From Podochytrium sp. JEL0797 (Eukaryota > Chytridiomycota > Chytridiomycetes > Chytridiales > Chytriomycetaceae), in contig JADGJG010000587.1 in NCBI GenBank assembly GCA_027596195.1, forward strand, positions 1-16,092: 16,092 nt of DNA. Reading direction: 5' to 3'. This document shows positions 2,439 to 14,693 of the stretch, piece after piece. Both the position numbers and the translations under genes were made by a program. Position 1 is the stretch's first letter, and each line of letters opens with the position of its first letter. Below the pieces are notes generated by a model. It ran no database searches. It was not told the DNA's origin and was given only the letters and a program-made list of their open reading frames with translations.

Positions 2439-2502
2439 CGAGAGAAATTTGTAGACTTGTCCTCCCAATACTCCCACTCGCTCAAATAGACTAGAAGCAA
2501 AT

Positions 2503-3150
2503 ATGCAATTCGCTACCCTCCTCTCCTTGTTGGCTGCCACTGCCCTTGCCCAAAACTACGTGGCCCCCGTCCCAGCCTACATCGCCCCAGCTCCAATCTC
2601 TTCCGCCGCCCCAGCGGCCGCTACTACTGCAGCAGCTCTCGTAGTTGTCACACCAACCCCAGCCGTTTATGCAGCCCCAGCGGCTGTTACTACTGCAGCG
2701 GCTCTCATCGTCGTTACGCCAACCCCAGCCGTCTACGCCGCCCCCGTGCCACCACCCTTGTTGATCAAGTCCACAGCCTCCGCCGCCGCCGCGATAGCCA
2801 CCGCTCCCATCGTCTACGTTGTCCCCACACCCGCCCAGCTCAACTCGGTAGCTGCCGCGACGGTTGCCACCCCCCCCGCGTATATCGCACCCACACCCGC
2901 TCTGATCAACTCTGTTGCGGCCGCGACGGCTGGTACGCCTGCGGCCACTCCTGCCAAGTGCATTACGCCACCCACACCCGTTGCTCCATCTGCCGGTCTG
3001 GCTGCTGCGACGGTAGCACCAGCGTTGTATGTCCCTACAAACAGCGCAGTGTCGGCGGTGAAGCCTGCGGCTACCAACTTGATCACCAACGGTGCCAAGA
3101 CGAATGGAGTCGCTGCTGTTGGAGCATTTGTGTTTGCGTTGTTGTTTTAA
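2503..3150 (+). CDS. Secreted Ala/Pro/Thr/Val-rich GPI-type wall protein, paralogue 3
   Basis: Encodes 215 aa, single exon. Residues 1-16 (MQFATLLSLLAATALA) are a signal peptide, followed by QNYVAPVPAYIAPAP, very like the start of the mature protein at 385. The body has internal repeats: a block containing VVVTPTPAVYAAP occurs twice back to back (about residues 38-84), and a block with Y-I/V-x-P-T-P-A-x-(L/I)-N-S-V-A-A-A-T occurs about twice later. The C-terminus ends in AVGAFVFALLF after T-N-G-A-K-T-N-G, as in GPI signals. It is the longest of the tandem family, and repeat expansion explains the extra length. It is probably a surface or wall protein; no enzyme domain is visible. Confidence 0.83.
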   Translation: MQFATLLSLLAATALAQNYVAPVPAYIAPAPISSAAPAAATTAAALVVVTPTPAVYAAPAAVTTAAALIVVTPTPAVYAAPVPPPLLIKSTASAAAAIATAPIVYVVPTPAQLNSVAAATVATPPAYIAPTPALINSVAAATAGTPAATPAKCITPPTPVAPSAGLAAATVAPALYVPTNSAVSAVKPAATNLITNGAKTNGVAAVGAFVFALLF

Positions 3151-3187: not shown

Positions 3188-3386
3188 AAAGAAAAATAGA
3201 AAATCGAATTTATCCATTAAAAGAATCTGATGTATAAGTCCCATCACGAGAAGTGTAGTAGCAGGACCCTTAGCAGCCGCCACGCAGCGTAAGCGGCCTT
3301 CCGCGGCAGAGTCCTCGTTTCCCGAACCCACGAAGCGGCGCACGAAGCCTCGCGTGGAGACTTCCCCAGATACTTAAATTCTGTTA

Positions 3387-5143: not shown

Positions 5144-6863
5144 ATGACTTCTACTGACGATTCCAAGTGGCCATACACCGCTTGTCTCGAGGACGGCGTG
5201 GAAATCACTGATCCCATCGACTGCGTCGTGAAGGGTTCTCTTCCGAGCTGGTTAAACGGCCGTTTGTACCGCACTGGACCCGGTGTCTACAAGATTGGCA
5301 CAGATGAGCGCAAGATTTCGTTTGATCATTGGGTAAGTGCTGGTGTCGATGGACAGCAGCGCCACTTTTTTTGACAACCCTTCATTCTGACAGTTTGATG
5401 GCGTCGGCATCACCCACCTCTTCACCATCCTCCCCGACGCGAAAGTCACCTACCGCAACCGGCTCACCGGCAAACCATTCATCAACGCAATCACCCAAAA
5501 GGGCAAGCTCCCACTCACGTTTGGTCCCACCAGTGACCCCTGTCAAAGCATCTTTGGCAAGATGTTTGCCGTGTTTGAACCGAAACCACCCATCAACGTG
5601 AATGTGTCTGTGACCCCGCGATTCGTCGTGCCAGGGGTTCAGAACCCCGTTTGTGTGCTCAAAACGGACGCGAATGTGTTGCTGCAGATTAACGCAGTCA
5701 CGTTGGAGCCAGTTGGAGTGAAGTTGAGTTCGTATGGAATTTTGAATGAGAAGGTTTGTTTTGTTTTGTGCTTGATGGCGCGATTTTCAATCCACGCTGA
5801 CTCGCTCCCGCTTTACGCGACATCACCCCCAAAACAGCTGAGTTCCGCCACGCAGTCCGTCTCGCACGAGGAATTCGATCCAGTCACCAACTCTTTCCTC
5901 AGTCTCATTGCGATTCCAGGCCCGAGCCCCAAATACATTGTCTTTGAGGCGAACCAAACCCCAGGCAACTCAGACCCAGCCACCATCCTCGCCGAATTCC
6001 ACGACCCAAACCTTGCCTACCTCCACTCCTTCTCCTCCACCAAGAAGTACGTTGTGATCCAACTCTGGCCGCTTGCCTTCGGAATGCGCGGGTTGAAAAT
6101 ATTGGCATCAAAATGCCTGACAGATGCGATGAAATGGGACCCCACACGTCCAACGCGGATGGTCGTGATTGACCGCGCGTTGAAAAAGGTGGTGGCCAAT
6201 TACCAACACCCGCCTGATTTTTGTTTCCACACCGTCAACGCGTTTGACGAGCGCAATGGCGACATTGTGATGGATTACATTGGGTACAAGTCGGGAGACG
6301 TTGTGCACGCGTTCATGATGACGGATTTGAAGAATTCTACCCACGAGACGCGTGTGGCACGTACACGCGCGTTGTTGAGTCCGTCGTTCCGACGCGTGCG
6401 GATTGTCAACTTGGATGCTGAAAAGGCGCGATACTCTCCTTCCAACACGATGGCAACGTCGTACCCCACCACTCAACTCATTTACTCAAGCCCCGTGCAA
6501 ATGGAACTCCCGCGCATTAACCCAGCGTGGAGACACAACCCTTCCTACCGATTTGCCTACGGTGCTGCCCACACGCAACGTCACCTCCACTCGCACGCGT
6601 TTTTGGACAGTCTCGTCAAGTTTGACACGCGCACACAGGAGGTTGTAGTTTGGTTCAAGGTGGGACACACGCCCAGTGAGCCCATGTTTGTGGCGAACCC
6701 GAGCGGTGTCGAGGAGGATGATGGGGTGGTGTTGTCGGTTGTGTTGGATGGGACGGAGGGGAAGAGTTATTTGTTGGTGTTGGAGGCAAAGACGTTTGAG
6801 GAGGCAGCGAGGGCAGAGGTGGGCGTGCTCTTGTCGTATGGCTTGCATGGAGCTTTTGTTTAA
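5144..6863 (+). CDS. Carotenoid cleavage oxygenase (RPE65/beta-carotene oxygenase family)
   Basis: Non-haem iron(II) enzyme of the family that cleaves carotenoids with O2 to apocarotenals or retinal. Exons are 5144-5332, 5394-5753 and 5838-6863, giving 524 aa, normal for the family. Both introns (61 and 84 nt) have GT..AG ends and are phase 0; the second has a GCTGAC branch-point candidate. Family landmarks are the N-terminal S-W-L-N-G-R-L-Y-R-T-G-P-G, the H-W|F-D-G-V at the first splice junction, and D-P-C-Q-S-I-F-G-K. Four candidate iron histidines sit in the right contexts and spacing: H193 (S-H-E-E-F-D-P), H246 (Y-L-H-S-F), H314 (C-F-H-T-V-N-A-F-D-E) and H520 (G-L-H-G-A-F). The first context lacks the usual A-H-P-H wording. 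The substrate cannot be read from sequence; retinal formation for a rhodopsin is a plausible inference. A truncated second copy lies upstream at 4138. Confidence 0.9.
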
Positions 6864-8168: not shown

Positions 8169-8773
8169 TCATGTTTGCAAACAAGTCAAACAAACTCCTT
8201 GATTGCCCGTATACCCCGCCACCAAGCAACACCGACAAAACACATCCTGGCATCGACTACAAATTTGACAGCACTCGGCACACGCGAGTTTATCACAAAA
8301 CGTGCAACTTTGGAGCGGCTGCGTGCTCATGAACGACATTGGCGAATCAGCAGCGGAAACGCCACAATGCGAGCAGCAGGGTTGGGGTATCGGTTGGTGG
8401 GGTTGTGTTACGATCATCATTGAGTTCGTGTTGTGATTGGTAGGGTGCTGCTGCTGTTGCCGCTGTTGGGGTTGGATCGGATTCATCATCTGTGACCACG
8501 GATTCGTTTGCTGAATCAGAGCCGGGCCAAACACGGATGGATTCGGAGTAGCCATTTGGTACTGCTGTTCAGGTTTGAAGCCAAACGTTGCCTGGGGTCG
8601 CATGAGCCGCGCCTGGGTTTCGGCTGCCAGAAGAGGGTGAGCGAGGTGAGTGAGGGAGATCAGACAAAAGTCCCCTGCGAGTCCCTCTCACCACACACAG
8701 CGTCCCAGTTCACATCAGACCGTCGGTATTTGAGCATCGATCCAGACCCTTCGCTGTCCGTTCGGCGTTTCAT
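8169..8773 (-). CDS. Siva-like cysteine-rich zinc-binding protein
   Basis: Two exons, 8773-8692 and 8623-8169, with a 68-nt phase-1 intron (GTGAGA..CTGGCAG), give 178 aa; animal Siva-1 is about 175 aa. The C-terminal 70 residues carry paired cysteines spaced C-x2-C ... C-x2-C-x4-C-x2-C-x3-C-x2-C-x4-C-x2-C-x11-C-x2-C, ending C-L-T-C-L-Q-T. This order and spacing is that of the Siva family C-terminus and should bind zinc. Splicing creates a V-C-A-E motif that also occurs in the Siva N-terminal half. The middle is Gln/Pro/Asn-rich and probably disordered. In animals Siva binds CD27-type receptors and is linked to apoptosis and p53 control. Those receptors are not expected in a fungus, so its role here is unknown. 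An ORF at 8660-8851 contains exon 1 but reads through the intron. Confidence 0.78.
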
Positions 8774-8996: not shown

Positions 8997-11645
8997 TCAC
9001 AACGTCAAAAACTCTAAGCTCCCATTTCGCGCGGCATAATCCTGCAAGCACTGAATCCCGTAATCCCCCAACTCCTTGTAATCCGAATACGCCGAAATTT
9101 TGAAATGCATCTCACTGCCAACACCAGGGAACGCATCTAATCCAACACAAAAACAAGCATGAGAAAAAAAACACGACACCAACAAACACACACACACATA
9201 CTCTCTCTCTCACCTTGATAACTCGGACAAAACTTATCCGCCGCTACCCAATTCGCTTCCGCTTTCCGCAACGAATTGTCCACCTCCAACTGAATCTGCA
9301 GAGACTCCTTCAACTGAATCGCATTCTGCGTGTCGTACCCAATCTCAAAATGTGTCGCGCCCGCGACTTGCTCTTTGGCGCGCTCAGCCAAGAAGGCCAG
9401 CACAAATTTGGACCGTTTGGCCGCATCGTGCGCGCGCTTGCGGGCAAACCGGGAGAGGAGGATGGATTCGATGCGGAGCCTACATCGTGGATGTTGTGGA
9501 AAATACGACGTGAGCTTGCAGACAAAACATGGGTGGTGGGTGGCGGAGCCGGAGAAGGGTGTTCCTTACATCAGAGAATAAAGCGGCCCGCATTTCGAAC
9601 GAGATAGGCGCTTGAGGGTGAACTGGAACAAGGACGTGGTTTGAGCGTGTGTGTTGTAGATGGATGCGTCGTCTTTGCCAGTCTACAACGACAAAAAAAA
9701 TGTTTAGCTCCAACATGAGCGAGGAAATGAAGAAAAACAAAAGAAAGAACCTCAAGCAGCGAATAAAAAATGGAAGCACTGTAATGCAAAGACAACAGCT
9801 GAGAATCCGCATCCGTCAGCGTGCTCCCCCCCTTGACTTTCTGATTGATCTCGTCCCCTTTGTGTTTGTGAATCGCACACAGATTCTTGAAGTTCAGCTT
9901 GGAAGTCGAAGCGGCAAGCCCTCCGTCATCACTCAACGCATTGCTGCTGCTTCGCGCGTTGCTCGACGGCATGGACTCTTGCGGTTCGGTAGCTGCGAGA
10001 GTTTGCTGCTGTTGCTTGGGGGTAGAAGACATGGGAGAGCCGAGAGATGATCCCATCTTGGTGGTGTACTGCGAAAGGCTGACTTTGGTTTTGGGTATCG
10101 GTTGGGCTGGAGGGATAGCTTTGAACACGGCGGCTGCAGGCGGGGTCGGTTTCGAGTCGGTGACCGTTGATCCGTTGGTCGTTTTGGTGGCAGGAGAGGG
10201 AGGCGGGAGGGGTGGAGGGGATTCGTCCCGTTTGCTTGATCGTCCTCCATCCTCGTCGCGAACCGACGACCGCCGTCTATCACCCTTCCGGTCCTCTCGC
10301 TTCTTGTCCCCATCGCGGTCCCTGGATCTCGATCGATCCATTCTGCTGCCATACTTGTCACGCTTCGAGCGATCACGCGAACCACTGCGAGATCGATCCC
10401 TCCCGCTCCTCCCGTCCCTGGACGCATTCCTCCGACTCCGAGACCGCGACACGGACCGATCCCTCTCCTTTCGGTCCCTCGACCGCACACGGGGCCTCCG
10501 GTCCGGAGACTTTCTCTCCACCACGTCCTTCTTTCGCTCCTCATCCTTCTCATCGCCGCGCTTCCTGTCCACCTTTTCATCATCCCCACGTTTCCGTTTT
10601 CTCTCCTCCTCCTTCCCATCATCCCTCTTGCGATCCCTCTTCGTGTCTTCCGACCGCCTCCGATCCCCACGATCCCTCCCACGATCTCTCGACCGCTCCC
10701 TCTCCCTCGACCGGTCCCTCGATCGGTCCCTCTCCCTCGACCGATCCCTCTCCTCCTTCTTATCTCTGCCCCCATTCCTCCCAGACGACCAACCACCACC
10801 GAACCCACCAGATTCATTCTCCCGCCTCAAACTACTCGACCCACTCGACCTCCCCTCCCGCTTATCCCGTGCATCCAACATCTCGCGCGACACACGCTGC
10901 TTCGAACGCGGAGAGCTGTCCGTCTTTTCAATGATTTGGACTTGAATGTGCGCGCGCGAGTTGGGGGTTCGTGAGGGCGGGGTGGTGCCGTTGCGTGGAG
11001 AGGACGCGGAAGTGGGGGGATGGGTGGGAGAAGGTTTGCGGTATGTTTTTATGGCGGGGGTTGGTTTCTATTTTTGTTGTGTGTGGGAGGGTTTTTTTTG
11101 TTTTTTTCGCAAAGGATTGAGTGATTTGTTGCGGGGACAAGAAAGGCACGAAGGGTTGGGTTGCGGGTGTGGAAGAATTCGCTTGGCATACCTTAGAGTC
11201 GGTTGATGGAGGTTGTTCGTCCACATCCATTGGGGCGACGGCGGAAGTTGACGAATCGGGGTTTTGAGGTTGTGGGGAAGCGGAAAAGGCGGAGGAGGAC
11301 GAGGTTCCTGAAGATTCCGAATCGGAGGAGGTTGACTCGTTACTGATGGGATGTGGAGGCGACTCAGTGCGCATCTAGGCGATTTTAGGTGTGATGAGAC
11401 TTTGATGGGCGAACAAGACGGGGGGGAGAAAACTGCGCAATGCGCAAGGCGAGGAGATGGATGGAGCAATTTAGCCTGCATAAATCTCCTATGGTGTGCG
11501 AACGCAGTGCGATGGCCGAAGGATGCGATATGGAACCGCAGAGGAATTGAGGCATTACCTTCTTTTTGGCGCTCTCTTTGGGATACTCCTCGCGCTCATC
11601 CAGCTCGAGGTCTACGGTGGGCGGCACAATGTCAGGGTGAGGCAT
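8997..11645 (-). CDS. AF4/FMR2 (AFF)-like protein with RS/RE-rich charged region
   Basis: AFF proteins are the scaffolds of the super elongation complex, which brings P-TEFb and ELL to RNA polymerase II. Six minus-strand exons keep one frame: 11645-11559, 11374-11192, 11067-9751, 9682-9570, 9479-9214 and 9136-8997. They give 701 aa, with introns of 184, 124, 68, 90 and 77 nt. Residues about 30-90 are Ser/Pro/acidic. Residues about 190-370 are packed with R-S, R-D, R-E and K-R-D repeats. Residues 481-701 resemble the AFF C-terminal homology domain: H-K-H-K-G-D-E near its start, then a Y-N-T-H segment matching M-Y-S-E-T in AFF, and L-R-I-E-S-I-L-L-S-R-F followed by A-A-K-R-S-K. The end has A-N-W-V-A-A-D-K and Y-G-I-Q-C-L-Q-D-Y. 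The donor of the 68-nt intron (GTTCTT) is weak. The 5' end is uncertain: the exon at 11645 may be spliced to more upstream sequence at CCTCCACAG. Confidence 0.68.
9187..9212. repeat. (CA)n-(CT)n microsatellite beside a splice site
   Basis: A CA run (9187-9198) is followed by a CT run (9201-9210). On the minus strand this is a GA run then a GT run that starts inside the 5' splice site (GTGAGAG) of the last intron of the AFF-like gene. Length changes here could affect splicing. Confidence 0.8.
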
Positions 11646-11731: not shown

Positions 11732-11839
11732 CGGTGGTCGGGAACGAGGCTTCGATAAGTGGCGCTTGACGGGCGGCCTCGTGGCTCCCTCGCGGTAGTT
11801 GTTGTAGTAAAATCTGAGATGTGGGTGATCGCAGTGATG

Positions 11840-11908
11840 CTCTTCACGAACGAAACCAAAACATGACCCTCTCAATGCCCAACGCGTCCCTCTTCACGAA
11901 CGAAACCA
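11840..11908. repeat. 19-bp direct repeat, 50 bp apart
   Basis: CTCTTCACGAACGAAACCA occurs at 11840-11858 and again at 11890-11908. The second copy encodes L-F-T-N-E-T at the start of the PHM-like domain; the first is in another frame because the spacing is 50 bp. This looks like a small local duplication at the truncated 5' end of the monooxygenase pseudogene. Confidence 0.85.
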
Positions 11909-13050
11909 GCTACCGCTGCACAACTTTCACACTCTCTTTCACGACCAAGCAACACGTATATCAATATGAGGCCGTGTTGAAAGGAACTGACACGCGACTC
12001 GTGCATCATTTGATATTGCATGGATGGTTATACAGATGGGGATTGACGATGCGGGTGAAAGATCTTTCTTTCTCATTTTATCCTCCAGCTGCAGGGTTCC
12101 CTTTGGTAAGCGTTTGCCCTTCCCCATCCTGCGCGTTGCGCTAAACAAAAAATAACCAAGGGCCCTGGTGCCGGCAATGTCCAATATATTATGGCCCTCC
12201 AAATCTATTACAACACCCTTTGGGAATATCAGGCGCATTCGACCACAACCCAGCGATATCGGTGTCCTCATGCTTGGGGACGAAACCAACATTTTCATTC
12301 CACCCAGTTCGCCGCAGTACACGACAGTTCCTCCGAATGTGTGTTCACCGACTTGTACGAAGCTGTTTGTGGCGCCATTGACGGTTGTGGGGAATTTCTT
12401 TCACATGTGAGCAAACGTTTTTTTAGAACGCGTTTTGATTTTCTGTAAGGAGAGCTTATTTTTTCACATGTCGACCCAGATTATCCGCAAAAGTGTCGAG
12501 CTCGAGCCACTTGGTGTCCGCCAGTTCTAAAATTATGGATTTCACCTCCGTTGGAACCGGGCGCGCAGATCATGCCGGGAGACACATTGTTGGCACAATG
12601 CACGTATATTCCGACGGATTCAGTGCATGGGAACCCGACGCAGTGGACGCAGTTTGGTCTTGGAACTCAGGTGGGTCAAAAGAAGTATGTGGATGTTCGG
12701 ACATTTATTACATCCCTTTGATTCACCAGGACGAAATGTGTTACAACTTTATCGTGTATTACCCTGCAGTTCCTAATATTTCGCAGTGCATTAACATTGG
12801 GAACGGGACGGAGGTGTGTGGGGACACGAATGGACCCTATATTGATGCAGCCCCCGTGAAGAATTTTACCACGCGTGCGTTGCCCATGTGCAGGAACGCG
12901 TTTGATGTTGATTTTGGATCTATTATTGCGCCGTCTGCAGTTGTGACTATGGCGACAGTTGGGACGGTGGCGACAGTGGGTACGAAAAGTGGTGCTGTTG
13001 GATTGGGTTTGGCAGCGGTGGCTGGAGTTTTCCCTTTTGTGTTGATGTGA
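11863..13050 (+). pseudogene. Damaged copper type II ascorbate-dependent monooxygenase (PHM/DBH-like) with GPI-like tail
   Basis: This family hydroxylates substrates with two copper sites, using ascorbate and O2. Recognisable parts in order: N-E-T-S-Y-R-C-T-T-F and L-V-H-H-L-I-L-H-G (copper-H histidines); P-P-A-A-G-F-P-L joined across an intron (12106-12160) to M-A-L-Q-I-Y-Y-N; D-I-G-V-L-M-L-G and F-I-P-P; P-T-C-T-K-L-F to F-F-H-M; I-M-P-G-D-T-L-L-A-Q-C-T-Y; and, after an intron at 12671-12729, D-E-M-C-Y-N-F-I-V-Y-Y-P. Defects: no signal peptide, loss of the Cys/Trp segment after the H-H motif, frame changes near 12214, 12250 and 12530, and Tyr where the third copper-H histidine should be (Q-I-Y-Y for Q-V/I-H-Y). 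The second histidine of the H-x-H in the C-domain is not found. An intron at 12407-12479 is possible. The tail ends in a hydrophobic GPI-type signal. A highly divergent active gene with sequencing errors is the alternative. Confidence 0.72.
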
Positions 13051-13082
13051 GGGAGTTGTCCGAACAGTTTTTTTTCTGAAAA

Positions 13083-14693
13083 ATGAACGAAAAATGGAAC
13101 TGCGCCGCATGCACTTTTGCCAACGCGAAGCCCCTCGCTGCCGTGTGCGAAGTGTGCGAGACACCGCGAGTGTTTTCACTCCTTCCAGTAAACCCCACTC
13201 CGGCACTCCCCCGCGAGCACTCTCGAACACTCCCCCCTTCCGCAAACTCATTCTCCAACACTTCCGCAAACACTTCCTCAAACACTCCTCTTCCGTCGCG
13301 CGCCGCCCTTGAACAAGAACGCCTCGCCCGCCTGGCTTCAAAGCGCCCGCGCGAAGAAGACACGCCCTCGCTTGCCAACAAACGAAGCTCGCACCAACAT
13401 CGCCTCGAAGGCTCCGTTGTTCTCACAAACGCTGCCTCTTACGGCCCCTCCTCATACACCTCCTCCACCTTCGCAAAAGTGGTCCAGCCCCAAACCCTCC
13501 GCAAATGCTTCCTCTCCGCCTTCCAGTTCGACCTGCCCTGGATCGCTGGCCACCTCCCGCCACACATCCCCGTCTGCCTCGCGCTCCACAATCCGACCCC
13601 CTCGCCTCCCAAACTTCAAAACAACATTTGCCTCGTGTTTCCAAAACTCGCGCGGGAAGGAACGTACAGCACGATGCACGTGAAGATCGGTGTATTGTTC
13701 CACGATATGTACGTCAGAGTCGTTGTGACGAGTGCGAATCTGGTCGATTATGATTGGAACGATTTGGAGAATGTGGTGTGGATGCAGGATTTTCCCGTCC
13801 GGTCGGTTGCATCCGGAAACAGATTGAACGGGGACGCGGCGACGGAGGAAGCGTCCTCGCCGCTCGGGGTCGCGTTTCAATCCGATTTGATTGACTTGTT
13901 GAAAGAGATGGAGGCGCAAGCGTGGGTGTGGGAGGCGTTGGAGGCGTTCGATTTCAGTGCGTGTAAGGCGCGGTTGGTTGTGTCGCGGCCGGGCAAGTTT
14001 GAGGGGGATGAAGCGTTTCGGTATGGCGTTGGAAGGCTTTCTTCGATTGTGCATGAGGTTCGAGAGAGTTCGGGAAAGAAGGAAGATGTGTCGTTGCTTT
14101 ATCAGGTTTGTGGTTGAGGGCTGGGGATATGATGGGTTTCTCATTTGCTTGAGTTTTTCCGCCCACAGACATCCAGCCTTGGTTCCCTCTCAAAATCATG
14201 GCTCACAGACTTTGAATCCGCTTGCCGCGGAACCCTCTTCCTCAACCCCCAACAACCCCGCCCCGAACCCTCCATCGAAATCGTATTTCCCACGCGAGAA
14301 ACGATCCAAAACAGCACCCTCGGCCCCTCCGGAAGCGGAACCATCACATGGAATCGCGCCATGTGGGAAAAATGTGAATACAAACACCTTCTGCGAGATG
14401 CAGTCTCGAAACGGCGCGGGGCCCTATCGCATTGCAAGATTTTGATTTGCGAATCGGAGAAGAGTGGCAAGAATGTGTATTATTACTGTGGGAGTCACAA
14501 CATGACCATGAGTGCGTGGGGGAAGCCGAGCGTGTTTGGGAAAAAGAAGGAACGAAGGGTTGAGATTTCGAATTGGGAGGTCGGTGTGTTGTTGGTTGCG
14601 GAGGATGGTGGGAGTGAGGGGTTTGTTGTTCCGTTTGTTCGGGAGCCGTTGAAGCGGCATGGGGAAGGACTGCGCGCATCTCACACGCGTTGA
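13083..14693 (+). CDS. TDP1: Tyrosyl-DNA phosphodiesterase 1 with N-terminal RanBP2-type zinc finger
   Basis: TDP1 removes stalled topoisomerase I peptides and other adducts from DNA 3' ends in the nucleus. Exons 13083-14105 and 14169-14693, with a 63-nt phase-0 intron (GTTTGT..CCCACAG), give 515 aa, close to the usual length. Both catalytic HxK(x)nN motifs are intact: H199, K201 and N219 (H-V-K ... V-T-S-A-N), and H429, K431 and N452 (H-C-K ... G-S-H-N-M-T). The Lys-to-Asn spacings of 18 and 21 equal those of human TDP1. Residues 4-25 form a RanBP2/NZF-type finger (W5, C7, C10, N14, C22, C25), which in that family binds RNA or ubiquitin. Residues about 30-105 are a low-complexity Ser/Pro/Asn linker. 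The T-S-S-L-G-S-L after the splice junction is a family motif. The start codon is 32 nt after the stop of the pseudogene upstream, so the promoter probably lies inside that pseudogene. Confidence 0.93.

Follow-up and report, generated by a model that had tools for sequence, protein, structure and literature searches.

A gene on the minus strand at positions 11645–8997 of contig JADGJG010000587.1, from the chytrid Podochytrium sp. JEL0797, encodes a predicted protein of 701 amino acids and lies within the 16,092-nt stretch of DNA analyzed here (hereafter, the window). The 701 amino acids are the exact product of six exons joined in frame, with GT..AG at all intron borders (Table 1), and the third exon sits in an open frame of 498 amino acids. 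From its N terminus, the protein consists of a region rich in Pro and in Ser/acidic stretches (residues 1–147), an arginine-rich arm, a linker and a conserved C-terminal domain (residues 477–701). We propose that this domain is a divergent relative of the C-terminal homology domain (CHD) of AFF proteins, which are described as super elongation complex scaffolds and leukaemia fusion partners (PMC8022399).

The gene belongs to a family of chytrid proteins. A homologue search with residues 460–701 returned four proteins at E ≤ 10 among 1035 candidates: one from Obelidium (P0001) at 57% identity, one from Entophlyctis (P0003) at 46% and two from Siphonaria, P0002 at 58% and the partial protein P0004, whose match of 61% identity covers 36% of the query. 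A profile search of 7995 candidates added, among the matches listed, Physocladia P0005 (50%) and P0006 (47%) and Chytriomyces P0007 (38%). There are thus at least seven homologues, all of them chytrid, all named hypothetical and none with a listed Pfam domain; the species of the three genera that were looked up (Obelidium, Entophlyctis and Physocladia) are Chytriomycetaceae of the order Chytridiales. Within the Podochytrium genome itself (24.4 Mb, 995 contigs), the domain query matched this gene only. Across the five sequences of alignment A1, comprising the window protein and four relatives, the block that contains HKHK, AIHKHKGDEINQ, is invariant. The arm is recognizable by its composition: 69 of its 224 residues are Arg, and it holds 33 RS/SR, 36 RD/DR and 15 RE/ER dipeptides, a richness comparable in P0001, P0002 and P0004 and weaker in P0003.

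The relationship to AFF proteins emerges from the predicted structure of the C-terminal domain. In both structure searches with the predicted domain, three AFF4 entries (PDB 6R80, 6K7P and 6KN5, released in 2019–2020 and corresponding to Pfam PF18876, AFF4_CHD) stood alone and matched nearly the whole domain, at a sequence identity of 13–19%. The training set of AlphaFold2 predates these AFF4 entries. A low-confidence loop separates the two longest helices of the prediction, and in the AFF4 CHD structure the loop at 1045–1082 is missing (PMC7026398); the long-helix handle of the AFF4 CHD is kept in the predicted chytrid domain. When the letters of the AFF4 PDB chain were aligned with MAFFT, a series of anchors fell in the same order as in AFF4, with LRIES on LRCES, KRSK on KYSK, W..A on W1110..A1113 and GIQCLQDYA on GLHWLRQDA; identity to AFF4 amounts to 12 of 40 positions at the first anchor and 5 of 42 at the second. 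A first-pass annotation, made from the DNA sequence alone, had assigned the last 220 residues to an AFF C-terminal homology domain and had pointed to the AFF1/AFF4 homodimer as the structure for comparison, and the fold predicted for the last ~225 residues bears this assignment out, with the AFF4 entries standing apart from the other matches. Of the landmarks on which it relied, HKHK lies in the invariant block of alignment A1, and LR-x-ES, K-x-S-K, W..A and the closing helix (G..L..A) align with their AFF4 counterparts. The Tyr that it placed in the MYSET position gives way to Ser or Ala in all four relatives of alignment A1, so this landmark is not a feature of the family. Because the sequence statistics described below are mixed, we concluded homology from the fold together with the ordered anchors. 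On these grounds the domain is very probably a divergent AFF-CHD homologue, and the homology is well supported at the level of the predicted fold.

We propose, with moderate confidence in the account as a whole, that this mostly disordered protein, which combines a divergent AFF1/AFF4 CHD with a long RS/RD/RE arm, works like AFF proteins. The CHD would form a TPR-like ring with a two-helix handle that pairs with itself or with a partner. Short motifs in the disordered regions would bring in elongation factors for RNA polymerase II, and nascent RNA or RNA-processing factors would be contacted by the CHD together with the arginine-rich arm. By analogy with AFF1/AFF4, the protein would be a disordered scaffold that ends in a folded pairing domain; we infer a nuclear location, pairing, elongation partners and RNA contact, as well as a super elongation complex role and a splicing link. 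RNA contact is plausible because the AFF4 CHD reportedly favors RNA over DNA (PMC7026398) and because AFF2 is reported to localize to nuclear speckles, and AFF2, AFF3 and AFF4 to influence splicing via G-quadruplex RNA (PMC4227175). Given these reports, a protein that fuses a CHD with an arginine-rich arm might reasonably be guessed to act in elongation plus RNA processing. As in the AFF1/AFF4 scaffold, a long low-complexity part containing Ser/acidic stretches precedes the folded domain at the C terminus. Unlike that scaffold, it is 701 amino acids long, has no AF-4 match and no AF9-binding consensus, and carries an RS/RD/RE-rich arm.

The chytrid family also differs from AFF4 in several respects. 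Dimerization of AFF4 requires F1014 and Y1096 (PMC7026398), and in all seven members with letters at these positions F1014 is replaced by Ala or Val and Y1096 by Gln, Ser, Thr or Ala; the position of V1099 is hydrophobic in 7/7 and that of V1097 in 6/7. The AF9/ENL-binding consensus LxVxIxLxx[VL], as given in PMC8022399, is absent from all eight chytrid proteins, several of which are partial. Among possible partner genes, an exon-by-exon search of the Podochytrium genome gave 18.3 bits for ELL (cut-off 22.9), in a stretch of contig C33 that was rejected as NT-C2 by Pfam, and no match for EAF; since exons were read singly and the ELL and EAF controls were matched in 0/14 genomes, absence of the two is not established. 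The same genome gave 17.4 bits for Occludin_ELL (cut-off 31.2), in a coiled-coil-like frame on contig C294, and 18.7 bits for AHD on contig C574 (cut-off 27), both set aside, and three YEATS matches above cut-off on two contigs, read as open reading frames. The first-pass annotation had named the protein a super elongation complex scaffold and had proposed a search for ELL and EAF homologues in the same genome; with the AF9 motif absent, the AFF4 dimer residues replaced and neither homologue found by this weak test, we treat the protein as a putative scaffold, and the link from elongation to splicing through its arm, also suggested there, as hypothetical.

A protein with a CHD fold that acts mainly in RNA processing, in splicing bodies and through its arginine-rich arm, without a super elongation complex role, would account for several of these observations. 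The dense RS/RD/RE dipeptides point that way, as do the missing AF9 motif, the failure to find ELL and EAF in a weak test and the splicing role reported for animal AFF2–4 (PMC4227175). The arm shares its RS/SR, RD and RE dipeptides with SR proteins, but in the chytrid protein, unlike these, neither an RNA-recognition motif nor any other domain was recognized by Pfam at E ≤ 10, and the animal CHD is the dimer domain of a scaffold (PMC7026398). We therefore regard a purely RNA-processing function as possible but unlikely, and retain an AFF-like mode of action as the working account.

The sequence-only tests bear on a second alternative, in which the C-terminal part is a TPR-like helical domain that does not share descent with AFF proteins. 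Pfam returned no family at E ≤ 10 for the whole 701-amino-acid protein, so the profile match to the AFF C-terminal domain that the first-pass annotation had set as its own check did not appear. The window protein gave no PF18876 match above cut-off, no AFF family was found among the five members searched, and AF-4 (PF05110) was unmatched in the whole protein; six-frame searches of the Podochytrium genome with PF18876 and searches of it with PF05110 found nothing, and the controls there were unmatched as well. The Urb2, Utp13 and Sas10 families, each of which matched one of the five members (E 0.015–0.12), were set aside, as was the single chance match of a PDB sequence search, a receptor at E 1.6; a PDB search with the family profile had no matches. 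The hhalign score was 22.5 against AFF4 alone (1/300 shuffles reached the score), 13.3 against a 60-row AFF profile (13/200), where swapping query and target gave 18.8 at E 0.073, and 15.9 against 23 cleaned AFF rows (20/200). The pairwise AFF4 score was reached, per 1000 shuffles, by 2 for the window protein, 105 for P0001, 23 for P0002, 160 for P0003, 0 for P0005, 4 for P0006 and 52 for P0007. A profile search that returned 63 AFF and two chytrid proteins is no evidence of kinship, as the profile already held both kinds. Because the hhalign scores against AFF profiles are inconclusive, also after cleaning, we do not claim detection by sequence, and because the protein did not match the sequence criteria of the curated AFF families when these were tested, it is filed as AFF-CHD-like and not as an AFF family member. 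Like the AFF4 CHD, the chytrid domain has the predicted fold over nearly its whole length, a handle of two long helices separated by a flexible loop, and the ordered anchors; it differs in having no Pfam match, in the replacement of both dimer residues and in its low identity. The weakness of these tests, and the middling Z scores that helical bundles reach by chance, favor convergence, but the three AFF4 entries were alone in both structure searches, where other TPR-like and 14-3-3 entries reached 7.7 or less, and the anchors keep the AFF4 order. Convergence is, in our judgment, improbable, and descent from a common CHD remains the preferred explanation of the fold.

Comparison with the relatives also bears on the splicing that joins the domain. 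The protein is continuous across junction 3 in 4/4 relatives, across junction 4 in two (P0003 has an insert there and P0004 stops there) and across junction 5 in 3/3 relatives that reach that far; junction 2 adjoins an indel of 4–7 residues in the homologues, and for junction 1 the support is a weak alignment with just two relatives, P0001 and P0002. The five frame-consistent junctions and the 701-amino-acid product proposed in the first-pass annotation are upheld by the GT..AG borders, the kept frame and this continuity, which is clear at junctions 3–5, and as a prediction from sequence the six-exon gene model holds. Confidence in the start of the protein is lower: the N terminus of P0001 lies at a similar position, whereas those of P0002 and P0003 extend further, and tblastn revealed no 5′ exon resembling the P0002 N terminus among the P0002 matches listed. 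It is very improbable that the gene model is mistaken and the C-terminal protein a product of wrongly joined frames, for although donor 3 is weak (GTTCTT), junctions 1 and 2 are weakly supported and the N terminus is uncertain, the domain runs on over junctions 3–5 in other genera at 46–61% identity, and at 38–50% in P0005–P0007.

Some deposited models in the family depart from this gene at its intron sites. Extra residues occur exactly at junction 4 in P0003 and P0007, and also at junction 3 in P0007, and P0006 is without the stretch preceding junction 3, as would be expected if intron sites were shared and the deposited models had slipped. These differences look like introns retained or skipped at shared sites, and the models of P0003, P0006 and P0007, which seem to keep or skip sequence exactly there, may need correction.

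Table 1 Exons and sequence features of the AFF-CHD-like gene in the window.
Feature	Positions	Strand	Description and support
Exon 1	11559..11645	-	Residues 1–29; ATG at 11645; GT donor, frame kept
VDL-plus-acidic motif near N terminus, TVDLELDE	11595..11618	-	Similar in P0001 (TLVDLDFSDDDEDE) and P0002 (TLVDLEISEDE), not P0003
Exon 2	11192..11374	-	Residues 30–90; Ser/acidic, Pro-rich; GT..AG, frame kept
Exon 3	9751..11067	-	Residues 91–529; arginine-rich arm, linker and CHD start; GT..AG, frame kept
QVQIIEK motif	10924..10944	-	Residues 132–138; identical letters in P0002 and P0004; differs from AF9-binding consensus
RS/RD/RE-rich arm	10225..10896	-	Residues 148–371; Arg-rich by composition
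Linker motif KVSLSQYTTK	10057..10086	-	Residues 418–427; pattern in 6/8 family proteins, absent from P0004 and P0007
AFF-CHD-like domain, exon 3 part	9751..9909	-	Residues 477–529; homologues and predicted fold
Exon 4	9570..9682	-	CHD continued; GT..AG, homologues, predicted fold
Exon 5	9214..9479	-	CHD continued: LRIES helix, flexible loop, W644 helix; GT..AG, homologues, AFF4 anchors, predicted fold
Exon 6	8997..9136	-	CHD end and stop codon; AG acceptor, homologues, predicted fold

Two of the short motifs deserve mention. The VDL and acidic cluster near the N terminus resembles a SUMO-interaction motif, and the linker motif, of the type KK[VI][SN]LSEYxSK, is a candidate docking motif.

The remainder of the window holds several other genes or gene fragments. 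Two neighboring frames on the plus strand resemble RPE65/carotenoid oxygenases: the frame at 3378–4688 matches nearly the whole model (262 bits), and the frame at 5391–6863 matches a short stretch of it (32 bits) and may be a spliced, degraded or partial copy. A tyrosyl-DNA phosphodiesterase is split across 13080–14117 and 14133–14693 (plus strand; 117 and 86 bits), probably by an intron, and the N terminus of these frames has what we take to be a small-zinc-finger look. Fragments resembling copper type II monooxygenases (11818–12144 and 12439–13050, plus strand) lie in divergent orientation to the AFF-like gene; the match is 37.8 bits for the N-terminal domain and 19.6 bits, below cut-off, for the C-terminal one. 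On the minus strand, the frame at 8169–8687 ends in a Cys-rich region that matches Siva weakly and below cut-off (E 0.3, 11.2 bits). On the plus strand, three open frames in succession (343–882, 1378–1875 and 2455–3150) are rich in Ala, Pro and Val; with their signal-peptide-like starts and YVAP/YIAP repeats, they look like a tandem surface-protein family.

The predicted fold suggests that the AFF-like kind of scaffold is present in early-branching fungi too. Ebp1 (Ell1-binding protein) of S. pombe is said to be distantly AFF-related, a relationship for which we found no supporting paper, and a literature search covering few subscription papers found none on a fungal AFF protein. A broader scenario, which we consider doubtful and offer tentatively, is that AFF-type scaffolds date back to the last ancestor shared by animals and fungi, and that the chytrid form, whether by retention or by later evolution, joins a CHD to an SR-like arm, so that a single protein couples RNA polymerase II elongation to splicing, with a pairing surface chemically unlike the animal one. 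If the AFF-CHD assignment is correct, it would place in early-branching fungi an AFF-type domain that is invisible to Pfam. The family would then offer an intron-rich fungal system for asking whether the original task of AFF proteins was to connect elongation with RNA processing, and how a CHD pairs without the two residues that are critical in AFF4.
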